A stretch of 64,000 nt of DNA from Candidatus Bathyarchaeota archaeon. GTDB lineage: Archaea; Thermoproteota; Bathyarchaeia; TCS64. Shown here in pieces: positions 14,772 through 59,651 of this stretch. The translations under genes were made by a program, and so were the position numbers. Positions within the stretch are counted from its first letter, which is position 1; each line of letters begins with the position of its first letter. The notes below the pieces were generated by a model. That model had not been told where the DNA came from, did not search any database, and was given only the letters and a program-made list of their open reading frames with translations. The stretch lies in contig JAFGHP010000020.1 of the NCBI GenBank assembly GCA_016930055.1, positions 1 to 64,000 of the forward strand, read 5' to 3'.

Positions 14772-14782
14772 TTAGATTTAAC

Positions 14783-14872
14783 GCGGTCGGCAGGATTCGA
14801 ACCCGCGACCATAGGCTATCTTCCAGATACTGTTCGAAGGCCCATGCTCTATCCTGGCTGAGCCACGACCGC
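14783..14872 (-). tRNA. tRNA-Arg (TCG anticodon) with about 16-nt intron at 37/38; CCA not encoded
   Basis: Acceptor GCGGUCG/CGACCGC, D-stem GCUC/GAGC, anticodon loop CUUCGA|A interrupted by ACAGUAUCUGGAAGAU, T-arm GCGGG-UUCGAAU-CCUGC. Confidence 0.93.
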
Positions 14873-31152: not shown

Positions 31153-31270
31153 CCCGCCTTAGCTCAATGGTAGAGCAATCGGCTGTAGTCTCCGCCCTGC
31201 GGGGCGAAGGCAATCAGACCTTTGAGCAGACACCGATGGGTTCCCGGTTCAAATCCTGGAGGCGGGACCA
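31153..31270 (+). tRNA. tRNA-Tyr (GTA) with about 43-nt intron at 37/38; CCA encoded
   Basis: Acceptor CCCGCCU/AGGCGGG with C1-G72 typical of archaeal tRNA-Tyr; anticodon stem AUCGG/CCGAU, loop CUGUAG|A; intron contains hairpin GCCC-UGCG-GGGC. Confidence 0.92.
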
Positions 31271-53779: not shown

Positions 53780-55426
53780 TTACTCGTCGTAATCGCTTGC
53801 TCCGGGTGCTCCACCGGGGCCTCCTGGGCCACCGGGACCGCCACTACTCTTTGCTGCTACTACGTCATCGATTCTCAGAATCATGCTAGTGACTTCTAGA
53901 CCTGATTTGATTGCTTGTTTCTTTACAACCATTGGTTCTATTACTCCTTCGTTTAGCATGTTTTTTACTCCTCCTTCGAAGACGTTTACACCCATAACTA
54001 TACCGTTTTCATTTTCGTGAGCTGCTTTCATTGATACTAATGTGTCCAATATGTCTAATCCTGCGTTTTCAGCGAGTGTTCTTGGTATAACTTCTAAAGC
54101 ATCTGCAAAAGCTTCAATAGCTAATTGTTCTCTACCACCAATTTGACGTGCGTAACTTCTAACTTCTTTAGAGAGCTCCATCTCGATAGCTCCGCCTCCT
54201 GGAACCATCTTAGGTACTTCAGCGACATCACTTACTACATATAATGCATCATTTAGGCTTCTTTCTGCTTCATCCATCATTCTTTCTAATCCTGCACGTA
54301 TAAAGATTGCAACTGATGAGGGGTTTTTACATTCTTCTACAAAGATCATTTTTTCGTTGCCAATTTTTCTTTCTTCAACTAGTCCACACACACCTAAATC
54401 GGAGGTTTTTAAGTCTGCTAAGTTATTAATCACTTTTCCACCCGTAGCTTTGGCTAGTTTTTCCATGTCGCTTTCTTTTAGACGGCGAGCTGCCAGCATA
54501 CCACTTTTAGATAGGTAATGTTGAGCTACATCATCGATGCCTTTTTGACAGAATAATACGTTTGCTCCGGAACTTACGACGGTGTCAACCATCTTTTTTA
54601 GCATTAATGCTTCTTGGTCAAGGAAAGCTTTGATTCCTTCAGGGGTTCTTATTCTGATTTCTGCGTCAATTTCTGTTTTCTCGATCTCTATTGCTGTATT
54701 TATTAAAGCAATTTTAGCATCTTTTATTTTTTTGGGCATTCCATCATGTACAACTTCTTTATCGACAATTATCCCGCTTATCAATTTAGTTTCTTGAAGA
54801 CTTTTTCCTTCTTTTTTGACTATTTGAATATTATCCACGTCTGCTATTGTTTGTCCGTCTCTTTTCTGAACGATTTGTTTTATTGCATCAACAACTATCT
54901 CTGAGAGGTGATCTCTATCAGTGGAGACTGTTTTACTCCTCATCGAGGTACTGGCTAATTTTATTAAGGTATCTCTATCATCCAAGTTAACGTCTAATGC
55001 TATCTTTTCTAGGTATTCCAATGCTTTATCGGCTGCTTTCTGATAACCAGAGATAATGATTGAAGGGTGGATCTCTTGTTCAAGAAGACCATCTGCTTTT
55101 TTGAGTAATTCTCCTGCAAAGATTACTGCGGTTGTTGTTCCATCTCCAACTTCTTTGTCTTGAGTTTTAGCGACTTCAATAACCATTTTTGCTGCTGGGT
55201 GTTGTACATCGATCTCTTCAAGGACTTTTGCTCCATCGCTCGTTATTGTTATATCTCCTAAACTATCGATTAGCATTTTGTCCATGCCACGTGGTCCTAA
55301 AGTGCTTTTTAATACTTCAGCAATTATTTGACCAGCCATCATGTTACTTCTACGAGCTTCTTTTCCTCTATTTCTTTTAGTGTCTTCTTTTAGGATTATT
55401 ACCGGTTTTCCACTCATGCTTGCCAT
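53780..55426 (-). CDS. ths: Thermosome subunit
   Basis: [70 protein letters not shown], Gly-rich C-terminus. Start set to MASMSGKP after GTGAGGTGA; the track start (55546) lies inside the upstream gene. Confidence 0.97.
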
Positions 55427-55436
55427 TTTTTTCACC

Positions 55437-57095
55437 TCACATTGGGGGCATGCCACCAGGCATTCCACCCATTCCTCCCATTCCGCCATAGCCTCCTTCA
55501 CCGCCAGGTGGTGTTTTTGGTTTTGTAGAAGCAATAATATCATCAATTTTTAGTAATAGTGTTGCTGCTTCAGTAGCTGATTTTATTGCTTGTGCTTTAA
55601 CTGCTTTAGGTTCGAGTATTCCTTTTTTCTCCATATCAATGATTTTTGATTCAAAAGCTTCAATTCCGGTCCATATTTCACCGTTAGCATGGCGACTCTG
55701 TAATTCAGCTAATGCATCTATTGGATCCATACCTGCGTTTTCTGATAAAGCGTTTGGAATTACTTCAAGTGCATCAGCAAAAACTGCTACTGCTAAACGT
55801 TCTCTGCCTTTTAATTTCTGAGCATAATCTCGGATTCTTAAAGCGATCTCTACCTCTGAAGCGCCTCCACCAGCAACAATCTTTGGCTCTTCAACAACGT
55901 CTTTTACTACACATAAAGCGTCGTGAAGGCTACGTTCTGCTTCATCTACTACTCTTTCTGATCCACCACGGATTAGTATGCTAATGGCTTTTGGGTTCTT
56001 GCATCCTTCAACAAAAATTAATTTATCTGATCCAATCTTTCTCTCTTCGACTAATTCAGAAAAGCCACTATCGTTTGTAGATAATTCTTCTATATTGGAT
56101 ACTACTTTAGCTCCTGTTGCCTTGGCTAAGGCTTCCATGTCACTTTTTTTAAGTCTTCTTGCAGCCATAATTCCTTCTCTAGCTAAAAAGTGTTGTACCA
56201 TATCATCGATGCCTTTTTGACATAGAAGAACAGTTATTCCTGCCTCCTTAATTTTTGCAACCATATCTCTCATCATGTGTTCTTCTTCATCTAGGTATTG
56301 TTGCATTTGTTCTGGTGTTTCAATGCTAATTTTACTTGTAAACTCAGTTTTTTCGATTTCTAATGCGGCATCTAGTAAACCAATTTTAGCGTTTCTAACG
56401 AGTTTTGGCATGTCACTATGGACGACATCTTTGTCAATGATTAATCCATTTATCAGAGTAGTATCTGTTAAGCTACCGCCTGGCTTTTTTTCTACTTTAA
56501 CCATGTCAAGGTCAACTTTCCAGCCTCCATTAATATCCTCAGCTACTTGTAATATCGCATTTGTTGCTAATTCTGCTAAATAGCCACTATGTCCAGATAC
56601 AAGTTTTGTTGACATCGTAGTTTTTGCTACTCTTTTTAGGGTCTCTTTATCTTTTGGTTCAACTTTTATTGCGATTTCGTCTAGTATTTTTAATGCTTGC
56701 TCTTGTGCATCTCTAAAACCATCAATTATTATTGTTGGATGAACCTTTTTATCGATAAGATCTTCTGCTTTTCCTAGAAGTTCACCAGTTAAAACAGCAA
56801 CAGTTGTAGTACCATCTCCAACTTCAGAATCTTGTGTTTTGGAGACTTCCACCATCATTTTAGCTGCAGGATGTTGAATATCCATCTCTTTCAACATTGT
56901 AGCACCATCATTTGTGATAGTTACATCACCAAAACTATCAACAAGCATTTTATCCATGCCTTTTGGGCCTAAGCTTGTTTTGATTGCTTCAGAGACTATT
57001 CTTGCAGCCATAATGTTGTTGCTTCTGGCATCAGACCCTCTAGAACGCTCAGTACCTTCTTTTAAAATATATATTTGTTGATTTGGGTCACTCAT
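55437..57095 (-). CDS. ths: Thermosome subunit, second paralogue
   Basis: [77 protein letters not shown] tail. Confidence 0.97.
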
Positions 57096-58052: not shown

Positions 58053-58505
58053 CTATATAATGTCAAAAGAAACCTCTAATAATTTTTTATTTAATCTAAA
58101 TCTACTTTTTTGAATTTTTATTTCAACAATTTCTCCTGTTTTTTGCGTGTGTTTTTTATTACAAGTATTAATATTCCAACCAGGAATTTCAACAATTTTT
58201 AATGTAGTTAATCCTGGGGGTAGAGGAAAAAGATCATATATTATGTCTCCCCATTTTTTCTCTGCTTCAATTTTTGATAATTCATGAATTTTTATTTTGA
58301 TATCCTGTTTAATAATTTCATTTGAAGTTTTTTCGATAAGGTTAATTTCTTCATCAGTTGGTTTCCTATCAAATTGCACAGCAATTCCACCATGTAAACC
58401 AGAAGCATAAACACTTGAAGTCCATTTAGCTCCAAGAATTTTTTGTATAGCACCTTTAACTATATGTATTGCAGTATGAGTTCGAATCTCGATATCTGAA
58501 GACAT
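58053..58505 (-). CDS. AlaX-like alanyl-tRNA editing domain protein
   Basis: HTAIH and CNKKH zinc-site motifs in the order of the AlaRS second additional domain. Confidence 0.85.
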   Translation of the reverse strand: MSSDIEIRTHTAIHIVKGAIQKILGAKWTSSVYASGLHGGIAVQFDRKPTDEEINLIEKTSNEIIKQDIKIKIHELSKIEAEKKWGDIIYDLFPLPPGLTTLKIVEIPGWNINTCNKKHTQKTGEIVEIKIQKSRFRLNKKLLEVSFDII

Positions 58506-58596
58506 ATTATTCTACATAGGATGTTCTCTAACTAATATATTTAATTTTTATTTTTATAGAAATTTAGATGTTTAAATTTTTTTTATAAAATGAAAG

Positions 58597-58802
58597 TGCC
58601 CAAGTGTAGATTGCCATAAGCGATTTTCAGGTCTGTTTTACACCGTTCCCGGGTACGTCACGCGTGAACATGTAGTCGCTTGAGAAGTGTAGTTTTCTCA
58701 GCGAGCCTAAGCCTACCGAGTTCTTTACAGCCCACTCCTCATGGCTCTGCGATGCATAAGATCTTACGCTGTTTAGATCTTTAGTTCGCTCCCACTTGGG
58801 CA
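58597..58802. ncRNA. Candidate structured non-coding RNA, about 206 nt, family unassigned, strand uncertain
   Basis: Terminal 10-bp helix UGCCCAAGUG/CACUUGGGCA; internal hairpins UCGCUUGAGAA-GUGUAGUU-UUCUCAGCGA, AGCC(C)A-CUCCUCA-UGGCU and AAGAUCU-UACGCUGUUU-AGAUCUU; markedly more GC-rich than flanks; no ORF. Confidence 0.6.
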
Positions 58803-59099
58803 ATCAATACACCTACTTATGTTCTATTAAGTAGTTATGTTTCACGAATAAATTATTTGGCTATTTTCTAAACTATTAATTCAATAGATTTTTGTAATAA
58901 AATAGTTAATAATATCTCTATTATTGGAGACAATGTATTCTTGGTGTGTTTATTGAAAAAAGATAGTCTGTAGATTAGATATTTAATATATTCATTTTAT
59001 GTTAGTACCAAAAAATGAGGATGATATAGCGTTAATAAAAAAATTATTTTGATTAGGAAGCTAAACCTTAAAACCATATAATAAGGAGCTATAAAACAT

Positions 59100-59651
59100 A
59101 TGTTGAATCGCGATGAAGCAATAACTCTAGTCCGACAATATGTCACAAATGATAATCTAATAAAACATATGATTTCAGTTGGCGCAATTATGAAGGGATT
59201 AGCATTACATTTTAACGAAGATGCTGAGCTTTGGGAAGCTGTAGGTATTCTTCACGATATTGATTATGAGAAGGTTGGGCAAGATTGGGAAAAACATGGT
59301 GCTATTTCAGCTGAGATGGTTAAAGACTTATTACCTGAAAAAGGATTGTATGCGATTAGAGCTCATAATGAACAAACGGGTTATAGTCCTAAAAATTTAA
59401 TAGATATCTGTCTTTATTCAGCTGATGCTTTATCAGGTTTAGTTATAGCAATGGGATTAATGTTACCAGATAAAAAATTGGCTAATGTTAAAGTATCAAG
59501 TCTCGTTAAGAGAATGAAAGATAAAAGTTTTGCTAGAGGAGTAAGTAGAGAGAATATAAATAGATGTTCTGAAGTTGGTTTAGAACTACAAGACTTCCTT
59601 CAAATTGGTTTGACATCTATGAAAGCAATTGCTTCAGAAATTGGTATGTAA
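59100..59651 (+). CDS. HD-domain hydrolase
   Basis: LWEAVGILHDIDYEKVGQDWEKHG and AIRAHNE: HD motif arrangement. Confidence 0.88.
   Translation: MLNRDEAITLVRQYVTNDNLIKHMISVGAIMKGLALHFNEDAELWEAVGILHDIDYEKVGQDWEKHGAISAEMVKDLLPEKGLYAIRAHNEQTGYSPKNLIDICLYSADALSGLVIAMGLMLPDKKLANVKVSSLVKRMKDKSFARGVSRENINRCSEVGLELQDFLQIGLTSMKAIASEIGM

Follow-up and report, generated by a model that had tools for sequence, protein, structure and literature searches.

Among described small RNAs, 6S RNA and the CsrB/RsmY-type RNAs of bacteria are stand-alone, structured and protein-binding, are transcribed from promoters of their own, and in some cases occur in multiple copies. The Y RNAs, which are bound by Ro/TROVE proteins, have a terminal helix that joins their two ends and occur as several paralogues. 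Here, an RNA gene family is described that resembles these systems in part, a member of which lies in a 64,000-nucleotide (nt) stretch of DNA from Candidatus Bathyarchaeota archaeon (GenBank assembly GCA_016930055.1, contig JAFGHP010000020.1, positions 1 to 64,000; hereafter, the window). In the window, the RNA gene corresponds to a covariance-model match of 208 nt at positions 58596-58803 on the minus strand and, judging from sequence comparisons, it very probably belongs to a real family of non-coding RNA genes read from that strand.

Like 6S, CsrB and RsmY RNAs, the members of this family are stand-alone, structured and multi-copy, and have promoter-like flanks; unlike them, the window RNA is archaeal, adopts a pseudoknotted junction fold, and has no match in Rfam. 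The end-joining terminal helix, a similar size range, and the presence of several paralogues recall the Y RNAs. For a Y RNA, a Ro partner (PF05731) would be expected, yet 26 of the 27 genomes of this archaeal family, the present one among them, gave no match to one. The sole TROVE/Ro protein among these 27 genomes is encoded in G014 (contig C137, 14777-15664; L128 and L129).

Absence from described RNA families

An earlier note on this DNA, made from the letters of the sequence, had proposed a structured RNA of unfamiliar family at 58597-58802 and had seen no signatures of RNase P or signal recognition particle (SRP) RNAs. Both proposals were borne out. In a search of both strands against Rfam 15, no family reached its gathering score on the RNA, and the only matches in the window to do so were tRNAs elsewhere. 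With relaxed thresholds, neither the island nor 15 loci with relatives yielded a credible match on the RNA; the only hits on it, on either strand, were to sX5, with chance-like scores of 12.8 and 20.0 bits compared to the 50 bits of that family's threshold. Searches of the open-access literature, judged by title and abstract, likewise yielded no account of the RNA. It is nearly certain that this is a new non-coding RNA family, absent from Rfam 15. "New" applies here to the RNA family, the function of which could still be of a known kind.

Like the RNase P and SRP RNAs of archaea, the window RNA is GC-rich and structured and is closed by a terminal helix that connects both ends, as would be expected if it were a derivative of one of these or of another housekeeping RNA. 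Yet this genome encodes RNase P RNA at C61:4411-4701 (Rfam RNaseP_arch) and SRP RNA at C103:26899-27211 (Rfam Archaea_SRP), both separate from the island, and a separate RNase P RNA is present in 20 of the 27 genomes of the archaeal family. Moreover, cmscan, blastn and nhmmer detected no similarity of the RNA to housekeeping RNAs, among them the RNase P, SRP and 16S RNAs of this genome, and a housekeeping origin is close to refuted. Archaeal C/D and H/ACA guide RNAs are likewise small, structured and often multi-copy; the new RNA has no Rfam match to either class, and neither a guide loop nor a C/D or H/ACA layout was seen by eye in an alignment of 33 copies. Kink-turn layouts, also sought by eye, were not found.

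A conserved, pseudoknotted fold

The RNA coincides with a GC-rich island of about 208 nt (about 50% G+C) inside an AT-rich intergenic interval. Measured per 100 bases, the G+C fraction is 0.47-0.53 across 58600-58799 as compared to 0.17-0.25 on either side, in keeping with the earlier note, whose limits for the island fall within one base of the covariance-model match. Predicted folding of the minus strand (z-score of -3.34) and of the plus strand (z-score of -3.85) was in each case better than that of 200 of 200 dinucleotide shuffles, and folding by itself therefore cannot indicate which strand is the RNA.

Relatives provide such discrimination. Searches with blastn against 61 related genomes identified one syntenic copy, in G004 (84% identity), with partial matches also present in G003 (three) and G005 (one). 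R1, the initial covariance model, was derived from six sequences, the P5 arm of two of which was shortened by hand to align the 3' ends; only native sequences went into the subsequent models, R2 and R3. The window RNA scores 148.7 bits with R1, 110.1 bits with R2, and 105.5 bits with R3. In an alignment of 28 sequences, 92.7% of cells in the predicted helices are paired, compared to 30-41% when the pairing partners are slid, and two-sided changes occur in 29 of 49 pairs. With 33 sequences, 92.1% of cells are paired and, with the pseudoknot counted in, two-sided changes occur in 32 of 45 pairs. Fitting to nested helices biases these alignments in favor of such helices and, with the copies also being related, the counts do not represent independent events. 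The window sequence folds into the consensus structure at -69.9 kcal/mol, as compared to -70.8 kcal/mol when unconstrained.

The terminal helix, P1, is formed by GCCCAAGUG/CACUUGGGC, with its 5' strand at 58790-58802 and its 3' strand at 58597-58610 (all helices are on the minus strand). The earlier note had described this helix as 10 bp; it is conserved, with two-sided changes in 8 of 13 pairs, and in this copy is lengthened to 13 bp, one base being bulged; its inner three pairs are absent from shorter members. Inside P1 lies the P2/P2b hairpin (58749-58789), in which 58789-58786 pair with 58752-58749 (P2; 96.7% of cells paired) and 58779-58776 pair with 58763-58760 (P2b; 88.8% paired, two-sided changes in 4 of 4 pairs). 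P3 joins 58742-58744 to 58614-58616 (84% paired, two-sided changes in 3 of 3 pairs). P3b (58684-58738; 58738-58733 with 58689-58684) surrounds P4, is 95.9% paired, and has two-sided changes in 5 of 6 pairs. The P4 hairpin (58697-58720) has the tip GGC-UUAG-GCU, is 93.2% paired, and has two-sided changes in 7 of 10 pairs; in its tip, 32 of 33 sequences have a G-U wobble, and its cap is UUAG or UUUG. An optional arm, P5 (58618-58681; 58681-58676 with 58623-58618, from the constrained fold and the alignments), is long in this copy and that of G004, short in subtype A, and missing in the other subtypes.

The pseudoknot consists of 5 bp between the P2b loop (GNRGC; 58768-58772, ACAGC here) and a strand located between P3b and P4 (GCYNC; 58727-58731, GCUGU here). 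Its variants (GAAGC/GCUUC, ACAGC/GCUGU, GAGGC/GCCUC, and GAGAC/GUCUC) maintain complementarity: 96.9% of cells are paired, two-sided changes occur in 4 of 5 pairs, and 22 cells have two-sided changes as opposed to 7.2 in shuffles. The register is the best of those tested, the runner-up being 80% paired. Since the pseudoknot lies outside of every fitted model, it supports the fold independently of the fitting. Covariation among homologs, an analysis that the earlier note had proposed, is far above the shuffled and slid controls. A self-cleaving or processing ribozyme might also combine a pseudoknot with a compact junction; in this case, however, the ribozymes in Rfam are unmatched and the placement of the TATA-like box described below marks the 5' end as a probable site of initiation and not of cleavage, leaving ribozyme activity very improbable.

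Strand and transcription unit

Three features indicate that the minus strand is the RNA: an excess of G-U pairs, an upstream box, and a 3' element. In the conserved helices, cells with G-U outnumber those with A-C on the minus strand (126 versus 29), as they do when the invariant wobble and the inner part of P1 are excluded (85 versus 24), a count that is biased towards this strand since the model was fitted there. The earlier note had also pointed to a plus-strand loop, CUCCUCA, complementary to a Shine-Dalgarno-like GAGGAG. That suggestion is not supported: on the minus strand, to which the conserved RNA belongs, the stretch reads UGAGGAG and lies mostly in the paired helix P3b.

Upstream of the 5' end, relatives share ATATA at -25 to -21 and AA at -32/-31, preceded by an imperfect dyad (TTGC...GCAAC) at -52 to -35. 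Conservation in the region of the dyad amounts to approximately 1.0-1.5 bits at -52 to -50, -37, and -32, where the background averages 0.23 bits with single positions up to 1.0. The window has TTAATA (58825-58830) as its TATA-like box, near the position of the relatives' ATATA, and the dyad region is at 58835-58856, in which only the proximal half, GAAAC, is recognizable. Directly after P1 is a T-rich 3' element, TTTCATTTTATAAAAAAA (58578-58595; YTYCATTTTANNGAAAA in the family form), that is a putative terminator or U-rich tail. ATTTT occurs within 14 nt past the end of the RNA in 22 of 33 copies, compared to a mean of 1.5 and a maximum of 6 in shuffled sequences. Overall, the TATA-like box is present in nearly all copies, and the dyad and the T-rich 3' element in most. 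By inspection, these flanking elements are missing from this genome's RNase P and SRP genes. On account of these shared flanks, each copy looks like a transcription unit with its own promoter and 3' end.

The RNA could instead be a cis-acting leader or riboswitch of the gene downstream, which here encodes an AlaX-like protein. In G000 and G004, AlaX is the next gene on the same strand, 91 nt downstream, and the compact, pseudoknotted fold is riboswitch-like. Across loci, however, there is no constant downstream gene family: the downstream genes differ (AlaX, uppS, SPFH/Band 7, and beta-CASP nuclease) or run opposite, an inconsistency that argues against the RNA being the leader of one gene. 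The T-rich element, furthermore, is immediately 3' of P1, and AlaX carries its own TATA-like ATATATTA within the spacer. Regulation of a downstream gene in cis is, on this evidence, unlikely.

Distribution and subtypes

With R1, 28 copies were identified, distributed over 16 of the 259 genomes in the class, and the final count with R1-R3 is 33 complete copies in 16 genomes, with 1 to 5 per genome. An additional 5' half of the RNA is present at a contig end in G009. All copies are within genera g1, g3, g4, and g5 of the window's own archaeal family. The 16S rRNA of the present genome matches that of archaea; one primer for the Bathyarchaeia (MCG) group fits it exactly and another with three mismatches, which is no more than a hint of its placement. 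In the other genera of this family, in the other families of the class, and in a sample of 400 genomes of the phylum, the covariance models found nothing convincing. One match in a sister family (G032, L039), with an E value of about 0.05 and many broken pairs, was judged spurious. Among genomes of the archaeal family with a completeness of 90% or more and a contamination of no more than 5%, 8 of 8 encode RNase P RNA, and some of these are from genera that lack the new RNA, indicating that its absence is not simply due to poor RNA-gene content.

The RNA is 208 nt long here, 131-171 nt in most relatives, and 91 nt in one form. Four subtypes were defined: A is about 170 nt long and has P5; B, of about 144 nt, adjoins AlaX; C is 134 nt long; and D, at 91 nt, lacks both P2 and the pseudoknot. 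The diverged subtypes A, B, and C retain the entire core fold. The 91-nt form (L042:1501-1591, minus strand) comprises P1 and the P4 hairpin and is possibly a minimal or degenerate paralogue, or else a weak match. The present genome has a single copy, g5 genomes usually have two, and GC-rich g1 genomes have three to five copies that represent up to four subtypes each. The g1 loci (L009-L044) vary widely in G+C, from 29-33% in G000 and G004 to 47-62% in others. The RNA beside AlaX groups with subtype A in G000 and G004, and is of subtype B in the GC-rich species. This switch of subtype suggests replacement or gene conversion.

The dispersal of copies, several of which are non-syntenic in the GC-rich g1 genomes, would also be compatible with an RNA that serves a mobile element or an RNA-guided system as its guide or structural component, such as a TnpB omega RNA, an IS110 bridge RNA, or a CRISPR tracrRNA. 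Against this, some copies in g1 and g5 keep their synteny, and a common 3' element is present in place of a variable guide. No recurrent nuclease, transposase, or cas gene was noticed in the flanking reading frames, only some of which were searched against Pfam or NCBIfam. Finally, no copies of the RNA were found in plasmids, phages, or viral contigs. Pattern matches in 69 viral contigs were, every one, rejected by the covariance model. We therefore give little credence to a mobile or RNA-guided origin.

Neighboring genes

The gene 91 nt downstream of the RNA (58053-58505, minus strand), syntenic in G004, encodes an AlaX-like alanyl-tRNA editing domain protein of 150 amino acids with an HTAIH motif. 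The protein has no Pfam match, and its matches to the AlaRS and AlaXM models are both under the curated NCBIfam cut-offs. AlaX-like genes are near the RNA in 6 of 6 g1 genomes and in one g5 genome. A link between AlaX and the G-U wobble of P4, by way of G3-U70 of tRNA-Ala, was considered and dropped, since the flanking base pairs differ and AlaX is near some copies only. On the other side of the RNA, an HD-domain protein is encoded divergently (59100-59651, plus strand).

Elsewhere in the window, two Rfam tRNA matches, one of 115 nt at 31153-31267 (plus strand) that was missed by ARAGORN and one of 91 nt at 14782-14872 (minus strand) that was not typed by it, are likely intron-containing or otherwise unusual tRNAs. 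Two thermosome-type reading frames lie side by side at 53780-57095 (minus strand). One, of 588 amino acids if its start is taken to be TTG, carries some 47 additional residues at the N-terminus; these overlap the neighboring frame and are probably untranslated.

Proposed mode of action

Transcription of the RNA would start at P1 or within a few bases of it, under the influence of a common DNA-binding activator, and would stop in the T-rich element. The compact fold may then be bound by a single dedicated protein, for which it would be a scaffold or a decoy in the way of 6S or CsrB/RsmY-type RNAs, and not function as an antisense guide, with paralogues possibly tuning dose or timing through the common promoter type. 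A scaffold is favored over a guide because, among unpaired positions, those with strong conservation are for the most part isolated purines or P4 cap bases, and because the alignment of 33 copies contains no long unpaired variable stretch. The occurrence of several diverged paralogues in many genomes also speaks for this proposal. That the RNA acts mainly by binding a putative protein partner is a suggestion to which we give slightly less than even weight. Taken as a whole, the statement that this is a stand-alone minus-strand gene for a structured, trans-acting RNA, the scaffold or decoy mechanism included, is likewise tentative and falls a little short of an even chance.

Several observations weigh against the scaffold or decoy proposal. 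Mean conservation is 0.69 at unpaired and 0.78 at paired positions, and singles out no protein-binding site. Upstream of the RNA, the dyad of this AT-rich genome is weak. When five genomes were scanned for the composite promoter at other places, 13 sites were obtained versus 17 in the control, and the RNA loci were themselves missed; without an excess, this result demonstrates no regulon and no activator. Also to be counted against it is the prospect of a trans-acting, antisense-type small RNA, in which short exposed seeds of the paralogues would pair with different mRNAs and an Sm-like protein would bind the U-rich tail. Multiple copies, a lineage-specific distribution, promoter-like flanks of their own, and a 3' element containing U would all suit such RNAs. 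Yet there is little long unpaired sequence, one loop being engaged in the pseudoknot and the others being short caps, and the whole core fold is kept in the diverged subtypes A, B, and C. An antisense role is, in our view, fairly unlikely.

It is conceivable, if rather doubtful, that the RNA forms the core of a lineage-specific ribonucleoprotein with no described archaeal counterpart, one that would combine a pseudoknotted core, coexisting paralogous forms, a dedicated promoter, and possibly an Sm-like U-rich tail. The upstream dyad and TATA-like box of the RNA family are reminiscent of the promoters of small nuclear RNAs. With the fold, pseudoknot, ends, shared flanks, and four subtypes of this RNA family defined in a little-studied archaeal lineage, structure probing, pull-down, and deletion experiments can be directly designed.
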